A DNA stretch of 64,000 bases from Knoellia sp. S7-12 (lineage in GTDB: Bacteria > Actinomycetota > Actinomycetes > Actinomycetales > Dermatophilaceae), in NCBI RefSeq assembly GCF_040518285.1, contig NZ_CP155449.1, positions 1,240,001 through 1,304,000 of the forward strand, given 5' to 3'. This document shows, one piece after another, positions 31,726 to 36,129 of this stretch (positions within the stretch are counted from its first letter, which is position 1; every line of letters starts with the position of its first letter). Both the position numbers and the translations under genes were made by a program. The notes below the pieces were generated by a model that had not been told where the DNA came from, searched no databases, and was given only the letters and a program-made list of their open reading frames with translations.

Positions 31726-33921
31726 ATGCCCATCCTGCCCTCACACCCCTCTGCTGACGCGATCCTCGACGGTCTCGACCCGGAGCAGCGAGAGGTGGCC
31801 GCCAACCCGTCCGGCCCGATGGTCGTGCTCGCGGGCGCCGGCACCGGCAAGACGCGTGCCATCACCCACCGCATTGCGTATGCCGTGCTGTCCGGTGCGC
31901 AGCAGCCGCAGCGCACGCTCGCTGTCACCTTCACGGCGCGGGCCGCGGGTGAGATGCGGACGCGGTTGCGTGACCTCGGTGTGGGTGGCGTCCAGGCTCG
32001 GACCTTCCACGCGGCGGCCCTGCGGCAGCTGCACTACTTCTGGCCACAGGCCATCGGTGGGGCGGCTCCCGAGGTCATGCCGCACAAGGCTGGCGCCGTC
32101 GCTGAGGCGGCGGGTCGGTTGCGAATGCGCTTCGACCGCACCGGTATTCGCGACCTCTCGGCAGAGGTCGAGTGGGCCAAGGTGAGCATGCTGACGTCCG
32201 AGACCTATGCCGCGGCCGCCCGGACGGCCGGACGTGAGGCGCCGGGTCTGGACCTCACCGCGATGGCCCGAGTCCTGGCGTCCTACGAAGAGGTCAAGGC
32301 CGAGCGCGGTGTCATCGACTTCGAGGACGTCCTGCTCGTCCTCGTCGGGATCCTTGAGGAGAACGACTCGGTGGCGCGCGCCGTGCGCGAGCAATATCGC
32401 AGCTTCGTCGTCGACGAGTACCAGGACGTCAACGCCCTCCAGCAGCGTCTGCTCGACCTGTGGCTCGCCGACCGTCAGGACATCTGTGTCGTGGGCGACC
32501 CGGCACAGACCATCTACTCGTTCACGGGTGCCTCTCCGGTCCACCTGCTCGGCTTCCGGGCCCGCCATCCCAAGGCGCAGCAGGTCGAGCTGGTGCGCAA
32601 CTACCGTTCCACGCCCGAGATCGTCGGCCTCGCCAACCTTGTGCTGCGTTCGCCCAGCGGGGGTCGGCGCAGCGGCTCGGTCGTCCTCGAGGCCCAGCGT
32701 GAGGCTGGCCCGGCTCCGAGCCTCGTCAGTCACCCCGACGACCCGAGTGAGGCTGCTGCGGTCGCCGCCCAGATCAGTGACCTCATCGGCGGGGGTGCAG
32801 CGCCCGCAGACATCGCGGTGCTCTTCCGGACCAATGGTCAGTCCGAGAACGTCGAGTCGGCTCTCGCTGACCGCGGCATTCCCTATCTCGTCCGCGGTGG
32901 CGAGCGCTTCTTCCAGCGCAAGGAAGTGCGCGAGGCCATCGTCCTCATGCGTGGGGCGGCGCGCTCGGACGACGGGTCGGTGCCCTTGCCCGACCTCGTG
33001 CGCGACGTCCTGCTCGGCGCCGGGTGGTCGCGTCAGGCACCCAACGCTGGGGGAGCCGCACGCGAGCGGTGGGAGTCATTGGCCTCCCTGGCCGCGCTGG
33101 CCGACGACCTCACAGCAGCCGATGGTGAGGCGAGGATGCCAGCGTTCGTCCGGGAGCTCGACGAGCGCATGGCCTCGCAGCACGCGCCGTCGGTCCAGGG
33201 CGTCACTCTTGCGTCCCTCCACGCGGCCAAGGGCCTCGAGTGGGGGACGGTGTTCCTCATCGGTGCCTCCGACGGCTATCTGCCCATCTCGATGGCGGAC
33301 ACACCCGAGGCGATCGAGGAGGAGCGGCGGCTGCTCTATGTCGGTGTGACCCGTGCTCGCGATCGTCTCATCGTGTCGTGGTCGGGGGCCCGCACGCCGG
33401 GTGCGCGTGCCACCCGGCGCCCGTCGCGCTTCCTCGACGGCACGGCGAGCATTCTCGGCGAAGGGGCACGCTCGCAACCCAAGCGTGGATCACGGGTCGG
33501 CACGAGCGGCGGAGCCGGTGGGAAGACACCCAAGGCCCCACGGCGCAGCGTCTGTCGCACGTGCGGTGCCGACCTGTCGACGGCGGGGGAGCGCACAGTG
33601 GGCCGCTGCTCGACCTGTCCGGCCACCTATGACGAGGTCATGTTCGAACGCCTGCGTGAATGGCGGCTGGCCACGGCGCGCACAGCGAGCGTGCCGGCGT
33701 TCGTCGTCTTCACCGATGCCACCCTCACGGCCATCGCGGAGCAGACGCCATCCGACCTGGCGAGCCTCTCAGCGATCAGTGGCGTGGGTCAGCGCAAGCT
33801 CGACCTGTATGCCAGTCAGGTGCTGGCCGTCCTCGGCGGCGAATCCCCCGAGTCCGTGGTCCAATCCGCAACAAATTTTCAGAGCGAATCCGGTTCTGCT
33901 GCAACGGAATCCGGCGCCTGA
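31726..33921 (+). CDS. uvrD2: UvrD2-type SF1 DNA helicase
   Basis: A 731-residue helicase: AGAGTGKT (36-43), VTFTARAA, VDEYQDV (about residue 227), GDPAQTIYSFTGA, LASLHAAKGLEW and VGVTRAR. A tetracysteine zinc motif (CRTCGADL ... CSTC) and a C-terminal HRDC domain ending in ISGVGQRKLDLY mark the UvrD2 subtype, which is essential in mycobacteria and acts in repair and unwinding. The final 20 residues are Ser/Glu-rich and unlike the rest in codon use. It precedes the whiB7 leader, as in mycobacteria. Confidence 0.93.
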   Translation: MPILPSHPSADAILDGLDPEQREVAANPSGPMVVLAGAGTGKTRAITHRIAYAVLSGAQQPQRTLAVTFTARAAGEMRTRLRDLGVGGVQARTFHAAALRQLHYFWPQAIGGAAPEVMPHKAGAVAEAAGRLRMRFDRTGIRDLSAEVEWAKVSMLTSETYAAAARTAGREAPGLDLTAMARVLASYEEVKAERGVIDFEDVLLVLVGILEENDSVARAVREQYRSFVVDEYQDVNALQQRLLDLWLADRQDICVVGDPAQTIYSFTGASPVHLLGFRARHPKAQQVELVRNYRSTPEIVGLANLVLRSPSGGRRSGSVVLEAQREAGPAPSLVSHPDDPSEAAAVAAQISDLIGGGAAPADIAVLFRTNGQSENVESALADRGIPYLVRGGERFFQRKEVREAIVLMRGAARSDDGSVPLPDLVRDVLLGAGWSRQAPNAGGAARERWESLASLAALADDLTAADGEARMPAFVRELDERMASQHAPSVQGVTLASLHAAKGLEWGTVFLIGASDGYLPISMADTPEAIEEERRLLYVGVTRARDRLIVSWSGARTPGARATRRPSRFLDGTASILGEGARSQPKRGSRVGTSGGAGGKTPKAPRRSVCRTCGADLSTAGERTVGRCSTCPATYDEVMFERLREWRLATARTASVPAFVVFTDATLTAIAEQTPSDLASLSAISGVGQRKLDLYASQVLAVLGGESPESVVQSATNFQSESGSAATESGA

Positions 33922-34810: not shown

Positions 34811-34942
34811 ATGTATCGCAGGCGAATGCAACAGGTTCGTCGCATCCTGCACGAGCGGAACGCGCACGAAGCGCAACGCCGTGCACAGGCGCACGTCGAG
34901 CGAGAACGAATGCTCGCCGAGGTCCGCATGATCGTGCGATGA
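34811..34942 (+). CDS. Small arginine-rich protein (43 aa)
   Basis: ATG 34811 follows GGAGG by five bases. The 43-residue product (MYRRRMQQVRRILHERNAHE at its start) is almost all helix-forming with 11 Arg and several Glu, pI very high. No family is recognised. A second short frame (MTDRFGAAPERW, 29 codons, 34939-35028) overlaps its stop as ATGA. It lies just downstream of whiB7, possibly cotranscribed. Confidence 0.45.
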   Translation: MYRRRMQQVRRILHERNAHEAQRRAQAHVERERMLAEVRMIVR

Positions 34943-35117
34943 CCGATCGATTCGGTGCCGCTCCCGAACGCTGGGGGCGGCGCCGTTTCATGTCCGGAGC
35001 TGGTTATGCCGTCCCTTCCATTCCGTGAGACGCCCCAGTTTCCGGGTGGACCCGGCCCTGGGGCCGTGGTTCGCTCTTCCCATGTCGTCGACCGCAGCCG
35101 CCCGGAATTCCCCGGTC
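34943..35117. other. Gap between the small protein and the cysteine leader
   Basis: Apart from the 29-codon frame noted with the small protein, I see no gene or clear promoter here; it must hold the promoter for the cysteine dioxygenase unit, but no convincing -10/-35 pair was found. Confidence 0.3.
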
Positions 35118-35156
35118 ATGCCCGCTGCCGTCATGTGCTGTCGCTGTTCCTGCTGA
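35118..35156 (+). CDS. Cysteine-rich leader peptide of the cysteine dioxygenase operon
   Basis: ATG 35118 opens MPAAVMCCRCSC and the inner ATG 35133 opens MCCRCSC, both ending at TGA 35154-35156. Four cysteines in seven codons is far from chance in a non-coding gap. Poly-cysteine leader frames are known cysteine-responsive attenuators of sulfur operons in mycobacteria. No Shine-Dalgarno is visible, so it may be leaderless. A 6-bp hairpin (35171-35176 with 35185-35190) lies between its stop and the operon. Confidence 0.6.
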   Translation: MPAAVMCCRCSC

Positions 35157-35227
35157 CCTCGCACAGCCTCGGTCGCCCCAAGCTGCGACCTCCACAGACG
35201 ACACCCCTTAAGAGACTTCTATGACCC

Positions 35228-35719
35228 TTGCACGTTCGGCGTCGGCCCTTCCCGGCGTCAACACTTTCACCCCGGTCCCAGCTTCTGCGCGTGGCGCGGC
35301 TCTTCGCCGCCGACCCGGACCTTCCTGACCTGCTCCCGGTTCGCGCCGAGGATCCGGGGGGCCGGCGCTGGCACCAGCTCGCCGAGACCCACCATCTGCA
35401 GCTCTGGCTCATCGAATGGCCACCCGGCGCGAGCACCGGCTTTCACGACCACGCTGGATCGCGGGGCGCGTTCACGACGGTGCGGGGAGAGCTCACCGAG
35501 CGACAGGTCGTCCAGAAGGCCCTGCACACGCGGGTGCTGCCTGCGGGCGAGGGTCGGGCGTTCGGTGCCAACCACCTTCATGACGTCGTCAACAACGGCA
35601 CCGAAGCCGCTCTGAGCGTCCACGCCTACTCGCCGCGACTCGACCAGATGACGCACTACGACCTCGTCGAGGGTGTCCTCGTCCCGGCTGGCGTCGAGCA
35701 GCGAGGTGAGAACTGGTGA
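35228..35719 (+). CDS. Cysteine dioxygenase family protein, 5' end apparently frameshifted
   Basis: A cupin-fold iron dioxygenase that oxidises cysteine to its sulfinic acid. The metal His pair is in FHDHAGSRGAFTTV, and the third ligand is in NHLHDVVNNG, followed by the conserved HAYSPRL. The open frame begins at a TTG (35228), with GTG 35288 as an alternative. A neighbouring frame from ATG 35221 reads MTLARSASALPGVNTFTP, after which SQLLRVARLFAAD continues in this frame: one extra G near 35275 seems to split the natural N-terminus. The stop overlaps the rhodanese GTG (GTGA). Confidence 0.8.
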   Translation: MHVRRRPFPASTLSPRSQLLRVARLFAADPDLPDLLPVRAEDPGGRRWHQLAETHHLQLWLIEWPPGASTGFHDHAGSRGAFTTVRGELTERQVVQKALHTRVLPAGEGRAFGANHLHDVVNNGTEAALSVHAYSPRLDQMTHYDLVEGVLVPAGVEQRGENW

Positions 35720-36129
35720 GCGGCAACGGAATTGAGGAGTTGCTTGCACAGGCTCGCTCGCGTCTCGATCGGTTGTCTGCGCGCGATGCCTGGCGTGAGG
35801 TGCGCTCCGGTGCAGCGTGGCTCGTCGACATCCGTCCGGCGGCACAGCGCGCCGACGAGGGCGAGGTCGCTCCCGGTCTCGCGCCTCGCGTGATCGAGCG
35901 AAACGTTCTGGAGTGGCGCTTCGACCCGCGACAGGACGCCGTGCTTCCGGGTGTCGACTTCGACACTCGCGTCATCGTCATGTGTCAGGAGGGCTACACG
36001 TCGAGCCTTGCTGCTGATGCGTTGCGCTCACTCGGGTTGTCACACGCAACCGACCTCGTCGGTGGGTTCGCGGCGTGGCGAGGTGAGGGTCTGCCCATCG
36101 GCCGTCCAGCCCGCCAGCTGGGGTCGTAG
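35716..36129 (+). CDS. Rhodanese-domain sulfurtransferase
   Basis: A 137-residue single rhodanese domain: VDIRPAAQRADEGEVA is the first conserved motif, and the active-site loop VMCQEGYTSS holds the persulfide Cys. It is translationally coupled to cysteine dioxygenase, so it probably deals with sulfane sulfur arising from cysteine breakdown. GTG start in the GTGA overlap. Confidence 0.88.
   Translation: MSGNGIEELLAQARSRLDRLSARDAWREVRSGAAWLVDIRPAAQRADEGEVAPGLAPRVIERNVLEWRFDPRQDAVLPGVDFDTRVIVMCQEGYTSSLAADALRSLGLSHATDLVGGFAAWRGEGLPIGRPARQLGS

Follow-up and report, generated by a model that had tools for sequence, protein, structure and literature searches.

The sequence upstream of the thiol dioxygenase–rhodanese operon of Knoellia sp. 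S7-12 harbors a conserved, probably leaderless short ORF that ends in a run of cysteine codons, and RNA structure lies between this ORF and the operon. Mycobacterial cysteine attenuators, to which the initial annotation of this DNA had likened it, are built in the same way. A conserved ORF, promoter-like spacing, a conserved RNA fold, linkage to a dioxygenase gene and a resemblance of the encoded enzyme to ergothioneine dioxygenase all come directly out of the computations. The window, which is the whole stretch analyzed, comprises 64,000 nucleotides (positions 1240001–1304000 of a 4.16-Mb single-contig genome), and close relatives, all environmental actinobacteria, are found among Knoellia species and in "Janibacter" sp. 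HTCC2649. The features discussed below, in window coordinates, are as follows.

35026–35031, plus strand: TGAGAC box, perhaps an activator site or an additional promoter contact; 25 of 30 loci have a (G/A)AGAC word at about this distance.
35047–35052, plus strand: −35-like element TGGACC; a T(T/G)G near −36 to −34 is conserved in the 30 loci.
35067–35075, plus strand: extended −10-like element (TG, one base, TTCGCT).
35082–35156, plus strand: poly-Cys short ORF MSSTAAARNSPVMPAAVMCCRCSC, 24 codons, predicted to be leaderless.
35083–35089, plus strand: P0 5′ arm in the start region of the short ORF (window fold, 30 of 30 loci and swap test).
35090–35132, plus strand: predicted P1 hairpin within the short ORF.
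35134–35165, plus strand: predicted P2, the Cys-codon tract paired with sequence after the stop codon; relatives have an analogous pairing.
35171–35190, plus strand: P3 hairpin GGUCGC/GCGACC (minimum-free-energy fold and both-side changes).
35197–35203, plus strand: predicted P0 3′ arm, 18 to 24 nt upstream of the ATG at 35221.
35211–35214, plus strand: weak Shine–Dalgarno-like AGAG of the dioxygenase gene; GGAG stands here in six of eight Knoellia sequences.
35221–35719, plus strand: thiol dioxygenase gene (PF05995), its frame broken near codon 20 here.
35716–36129, plus strand: rhodanese-like gene, the second gene of the operon.

The frame with the ending MCCRCSC-stop that the initial annotation had placed at 35118–35156 is present and stops at 35156. 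Its conserved start is the ATG at 35082, 36 nt farther upstream, and its end lies 64 nt (rather than the 65 nt given earlier) before the ATG at 35221. As an entire ORF, 35118–35156 is ruled out, with promoter spacing and RNA pairing indicating the start at 35082. Among the 830 short ORFs of the 64-kb window (7 to 60 codons, one counted per stop codon), this is the sole ORF with at least four Cys in the last seven codons, and 60 first-order Markov versions of the window contain a mean of 0.017 such Cys-ending ORFs, with a maximum of 1.

The frame had been proposed for a search in related genomes, and there it is conserved, in eight of eight Knoellia-clade loci and in a related form in 13 others. 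The dioxygenase gene is found in eight of nine Knoellia-clade genomes, and in all eight the poly-Cys ORF is found at the same place, followed after 60 to 91 nt by the dioxygenase; the ninth genome (G007) has neither the dioxygenase gene nor a match to a leader model. The Knoellia peptides (MSSTAAARNSPVMPAAVMCCRCSC, MSSTAAVRKFPVMPAAVMCCRCCC, MSSTAASRIAPVMPAAVMCCCCCR and others) harbor four to five Cys in the last eight codons. Related peptides, for example MSSTTAVMRMHMASMCCGVMRCCCCA, occupy the same place in 13 loci from other genera of the family (the 13-set) and harbor two to four, with just two in L034 and L030; in this set, L020 begins with GTG and L030 is read from an internal ATG. The tracts of the two lineages differ, being CCRC in one and RCCCCA in the other, and in each of them Cys stays in frame at the end. 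Length changes inside the ORF are of 3 or 6 nt (+6 in remsis and aerolata, +3 in L028, and +3 in L085, L089 and L092 of the sister class described below). The 30 nucleotides that run from the ATG of codon 13 through codon 22 do not vary among the eight Knoellia sequences save for one base in one species, an identity that, on sequence comparison, exceeds what coding alone would need. The choice of these 21 poly-Cys loci was based on protein neighbor and Cys content and took no account of fold. The element does not occur throughout: many dioxygenase loci of the family have other Cys-ending leaders or none that we could see, and L018, which adjoins the Knoellia genes in the protein tree, is without such an ORF. 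A genome-wide pattern search for Cys clusters returned 391 raw matches (189 + 202), fewer than the reversed control (509 + 526). The poly-Cys ORF matches no NCBIfam family at E values up to 1 (Ms5788A, Ms4527A and cis_reg_atten included) and no Pfam model.

Upstream of the ORF, a gapless line-up of the 30 loci on the ORF start reveals that T−15, G−14, T−12 and T−7 are invariant in 30 of 30 and that C−8 is present in 29. Since the extended −10-like element ends 6 nt before the ATG, the RNA is predicted to start at or next to this codon, which would place the first base of the transcript at or near 35082. A scan of 34950–35350 with the E. coli sigma-70 consensus found no promoter, and TGGACC is not an E. 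coli consensus site. TGAGAC and TGGACC begin 21 nt apart, corresponding to two helical turns, and in many relatives the two are spaced similarly; 35026–35052 is possibly the binding site for an activator. No intrinsic terminator was found in the leader, and the one terminator-like site in 34950–35350, at 34953–34985, is upstream of the promoter.

The leader RNA (35082–35223) folds as a four-way junction with a free energy of −49.6 kcal/mol versus a shuffle mean of −36.3 (z −4.1, 0 of 200 shuffles as low). The hairpin at 35171–35190, which had been put forward as an element that could expose or hide the operon start, does exist in the minimum-free-energy fold, but as one arm of this junction (P3) rather than as a lone switch. 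P0, the closing helix that joins the start region of the ORF to sequence upstream of the dioxygenase, is predicted in 30 of 30 loci, with 5.2 to 7.9 expected pairs of 8 versus shuffle means of 0.9 to 1.9, and with 0 to 5 of 60 shuffles per locus as high as the real value. Nine of these loci (the c2 set) were picked through R1, a covariance model built from the 13-set (eight loci), or through complementarity at the 5′ end (L074), and because of this, their P0 is not independent evidence. In most loci from other genera, the P0 3′ arm is the Shine–Dalgarno sequence CGGAGAC itself, while in Knoellia P0 lies upstream of the Shine–Dalgarno and not on it. Pairing is stronger between the two P0 arms of one locus than after swapping (mean −10.7 versus −9.6 kcal/mol, 0 of 5000 permutations), because the arms of Knoellia match one another but not the arms of others; those of the 13-set and of the sister class are interchangeable and pair as well swapped as with their own partners. 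The swap signal is thus one of two lineages, hence of few independent events.

Covariation in the 13-set supports the fold. In this set, 87.5% of cells pair, compared with 26 to 48% in slid controls; 11 pairs are changed on both sides versus a shuffle mean of 5.7 (a level reached by 1 of 500); and the covariation score, 0.147 versus 0.093, is reached by 0 of 500. The number of further pair types, 30 versus 27.2 (71 of 500), is the one of the five measures that is not unusual. Six of the both-side changes fall in the variable P3, three in P1, two in P0 and none in P2. Covariation is weaker in Knoellia (0.125 versus 0.098, 6 of 500), with three both-sided pairs, all in P3. One alignment (A7) is biased toward the model structure, to which it had been fitted, and another (A3) was scored with a structure derived from A3 itself.

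A sister class of the element precedes the dioxygenase in 11 further loci (L081, L080, L085, L089, L092, L072, L037, L076, L086, L091 and L094; L086, L091 and L094 were found later and are outside the set of 30). The sister peptides end in WHxC plus one to two residues, mostly as WHxCR (for example WHVCRY and WHRCRV), and thus harbor one Cys in the tail. This class shares the RNA model match and has P0 on the Shine–Dalgarno of the dioxygenase, and no rhodanese gene was found adjoining its form of the dioxygenase. The third base of its Cys codon covaries with the pairing partner (UA in four and CG in four of eight). Because the sister class has the same fold with one Cys in its tail, the fold does not need the Cys tract, and a class with a WHxCR tail may sense something else. 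In all 13 loci of the 13-set (L019–L029, L034 and L030), a second, Cys-containing short ORF of the HxDL kind lies between the poly-Cys ORF and the dioxygenase gene, with its Shine–Dalgarno in or beside P0, such that here P0 locks this second ORF and not the dioxygenase itself. The second ORF is 60 to 78 codons long as read in 12 of the 13, and in L034 it ends before the dioxygenase gene. The L034 form matches NF042934, the NCBIfam family of Cys-containing actinobacterial putative leader peptides of the HxDL type (28.3 versus a cut-off of 27), while the L019 form and the poly-Cys ORF of the window do not; no second leader is seen between the poly-Cys ORF and the dioxygenase in Knoellia.

Other Cys-ending frames occur before the same gene. 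Short ORFs ending in RSCPACCQLR, SSCCRVR, RSCPARCQHL and RSCPACCQR are found in L060, L063, L065 and L066, from another family of the order, and are possibly of separate origin. In L077, L078, L083, L084, L073 and L075, the dioxygenase is preceded by short ORFs that carry pairs of Cys at the C-terminus (for example MQSITQRDLMRVSRPAARHCCLSA) and are unmatched by the RNA models.

Besides R1, we used models R2, from eight sister-class loci, and R3, from Knoellia only. In 13 of 149 family genomes, R1 picks up a single forward copy; all 13 copies stand immediately ahead of the dioxygenase gene and belong to the building set of the model (20 candidates scored per genome). Within the filters, it finds no further copies in these 149 genomes, the single extra match being the reverse strand of one such leader. 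R1 finds no Knoellia copy at an E value of 0.01, and it scores 62743–62846 of the window above the leader itself (E 0.22 versus 0.29). R3 recovers its own single copy in eight of nine Knoellia genomes with no others, and it finds 11 loci of the 13-set, six at E ≤1.2e-4 (best 6e-7), with no off-target match above the E 0.05 level. R2 recovers 12 loci of the 13-set, with E ≤1.5e-4 for 11 and a value of 3e-11 for L019. On Knoellia, R2 detects three of eight leaders (E 0.0016 to 0.023), no better than the off-target stretch 33169–33274 of the window (E 0.0027). Over 396 genomes, R2 finds one, through the L019 leader at 5e-10; with seven candidates scored per genome, a missing match in the others carries little weight. 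These cross-matches between models of separate lineages are the independent part of the model evidence, and since both R3 and R2 find the 13-set, it links Knoellia and the sister class. We count the element in 32 of 70 sources (the window plus 69 loci). No Rfam match above the gathering score was found at eight related loci, and the window stretch has one subthreshold match, outside the element. A quick FastTree phylogeny of 70 dioxygenase proteins unites the 11 WHxCR loci and places the eight Knoellia loci in one clade (0.996); because these groups are separated by proteins without the element, it is either old, with losses, or has moved.

The downstream gene matches PF05995, cysteine dioxygenase type I, at 64.8 bits on genome DNA (cut-off 23), and a rhodanese gene follows it in 19 of the 21 poly-Cys loci. 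The initial annotation had taken this protein as the enzyme that destroys cysteine, a reading that does not stand up well: the nearest solved structure, ranking above any solved cysteine dioxygenase, is the ergothioneine dioxygenase of Thermocatellispora tengchongensis (8qfl and others), at only 24 to 27% identity, and a conserved His/Tyr is found as in that enzyme. The rhodanese neighbor is a difference from the T. tengchongensis system. We use the name ergothioneine dioxygenase-like for this structural resemblance; 26% identity would not fix the substrate. Given the resemblance, the control logic may be the reverse of the one proposed earlier, and sulfur salvage in cysteine shortage fits better than cysteine destruction. 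The ATG at 35221, proposed earlier as the operon start, is conserved in position among the Knoellia relatives, but in the window it does not open the whole dioxygenase gene: the frame stops after 35 codons, at 35328, and the body of the dioxygenase is in a different frame (ORF listed at 35228–35719). In seven relatives, a single gene runs uninterrupted from the corresponding ATG. The break, about 20 codons in and within 35221–35328, is either a real frameshift, from a recent mutation, or a sequencing error.

We propose, tentatively and at somewhat less than an even chance, that the leader is a cis-acting, ribosome-read cysteine sensor that turns the operon on in cysteine shortage. Transcription would start at or adjoining the ATG of the 24-codon ORF, whose Cys tract lies just before the stop, and the leader RNA would fold into the four-way junction, with P0 tying the first codons of the ORF to the ribosome-binding region of the next gene and P2, the second junction arm, carrying the Cys codons. 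With charged Cys-tRNA plentiful, ribosomes would clear the ORF, the junction would re-form, and translation of the operon would be disfavored. With Cys-tRNA scarce, ribosomes would stall within the Cys tract, the queue behind them would cover the 5′ end, P0 would not form, and the operon would be translated; cysteine shortage would thereby turn on sulfur salvage through an ergothioneine dioxygenase-like thiol dioxygenase and a rhodanese. The level of the enzyme would then probably be set by the rate at which cysteine is added to protein.

Folding simulations in which the bases covered by ribosomes (with an assumed footprint) were forbidden to pair bear on this proposal. With the 5′ end covered, as in a simulated queue, the Shine–Dalgarno is freed in 11 of the 13-set (mean unpaired probability 0.11 to 0.41) and in six of nine c2 loci (0.07 to 0.21). 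In Knoellia, including the window, it rises in only one of eight loci (mean 0.40 to 0.32), and the wider start region rises in five of eight (0.59 to 0.63). A single stalled ribosome without a queue gives no gain in the 13-set (0.11 to 0.09). Simple folding thus does not tell whether control in the window is positive or negative, and the favored sign, on in shortage, is drawn from the relatives and from reading the enzyme as one of salvage rather than from the window itself. We count against the sensor the Knoellia accessibilities and the place of P0 upstream of the Shine–Dalgarno there, the null result for a single stall, the lack of both-side changes in P2 in the 13-set and their restriction to P3 in Knoellia, the broken frame of the gene, the equality of swapped arms of the 13-set and the sister class, the lack of a consensus promoter, the sister class without a Cys tract and the 26% identity.

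The same parts could work with the opposite sign, such that high cysteine turns the operon on for disposal of the excess, in the manner of catabolic leaders like tnaC, and stalls at low cysteine would leave the C-rich stretch that follows the ORF open to Rho. The membership of the gene in PF05995, the leader without a terminator-like site and a Knoellia Shine–Dalgarno that is not clearly hidden speak for this arrangement, as does an earlier proposal of Rho for mycobacterial cys leaders (Seliverstov 2005, PMC1262725). We regard it as distinctly unlikely given an enzyme more like ergothioneine dioxygenase than cysteine dioxygenase and, in other genera, a P0 placed on the Shine–Dalgarno, which favors translational gating.

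A somewhat stronger, although still improbable, alternative is a structured leader and translation-coupling element through which expression would follow general translation or another ligand, with the Cys codons serving as RNA letters only, their UGC/UGU repeats being there for P2. In its favor, P2 includes the Cys tract as a paired strand, the third base of the sister-class Cys codon follows its partner, the sister class keeps the fold without the tract, the near-identity of the 30-nt Knoellia core is more than coding needs, and L034 and L030 have two Cys only in the last eight codons. Against this, either of the other two frames would give no Cys, yet the CCRC and RCCCCA lineages keep Cys in frame, and the neighbors are sulfur genes. 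Finally, short ORFs are common and the downstream gene of the window is broken, as expected if the frame were a chance one without function; for the element as a class, this is very unlikely in view of the conservation, promoter spacing, fold and shuffles.

Mycobacterial cysteine attenuators with leaderless poly-Cys short ORFs were reportedly described by Canestrari in 2020. Two hallmarks of those attenuators are found here, a short ORF that carries a tract of Cys codons ahead of a sulfur operon and its conservation in relatives. Cys-rich leader ORFs are seen by ribosome profiling before cysA2, Rv0485 and nirA in mycobacteria (Shell 2015, PMC4633059), and in M. smegmatis the genes downstream of small leaderless ORFs are regulated by these ORFs, whose Cys codons are contiguous (reviewed in PMC9031893, with the same work cited in PMC9094748 and PMC13236596). 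The mycobacterial ORFs are likewise short, with Cys codons at the end, and form the first cistron before sulfur-related or hypothetical genes. The present leader differs in the thiol dioxygenase downstream and in a four-way junction that ties its own start codons to the next ribosome-binding region. Cys-rich leader ORFs had been predicted before actinobacterial cys and cbs operons in 2005, and the mycobacterial leader regions are given there as being without conserved terminator hairpins (PMC1262725). The candidates of Mycobacterium, P. acnes and B. longum in that work have Cys runs near the stop and no intrinsic terminator, as here; a conserved junction is found in the present case (PMC1262725). 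The LEU element before leuA, as outlined in the same source, likewise has leader ORF bases that pair with the Shine–Dalgarno box; there the codon run pairs, and here the start-codon region does (PMC1262725). Among the matches listed in our literature searches, which covered few subscription papers, nothing was found on a poly-Cys leader before a dioxygenase gene.

In the papers considered here, known Cys leader ORFs precede cys, cbs, cysA2, nirA and hypothetical genes, and the leader described here precedes the gene of a sulfur-oxidizing enzyme. Its presence before a dioxygenase would mean either that control is reversed for cysteine disposal or that such "cysteine dioxygenases" serve in salvage when the cell is short of cysteine. 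P0 is an explicit, mutable lock that makes the mechanism directly testable, and the fold offers a rule for finding more leaderless leader ORFs. It is possible, if on the doubtful side, that the loci represent an as yet unnamed actinobacterial class of RNA regulator, seen in one family, in which a leaderless ORF uses its first codons to lock, by way of a four-way junction, the ribosome-binding site of the next gene, and stalling at Cys with queueing unlocks it, with control over an ergothioneine dioxygenase-like salvage enzyme, and with a WHxCR sister class and chains with second leaders as its variants.

A small basic ORF at 34811–34942 (MYRRRMQQVRRILHERNAHEAQRRAQAHVERERMLAEVRMIVR) lies farther upstream, downstream of a gene that is WhiB-like by eye. 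A stretch that resembles this ORF is found in L011, L014 and L015, in an overlapping frame.
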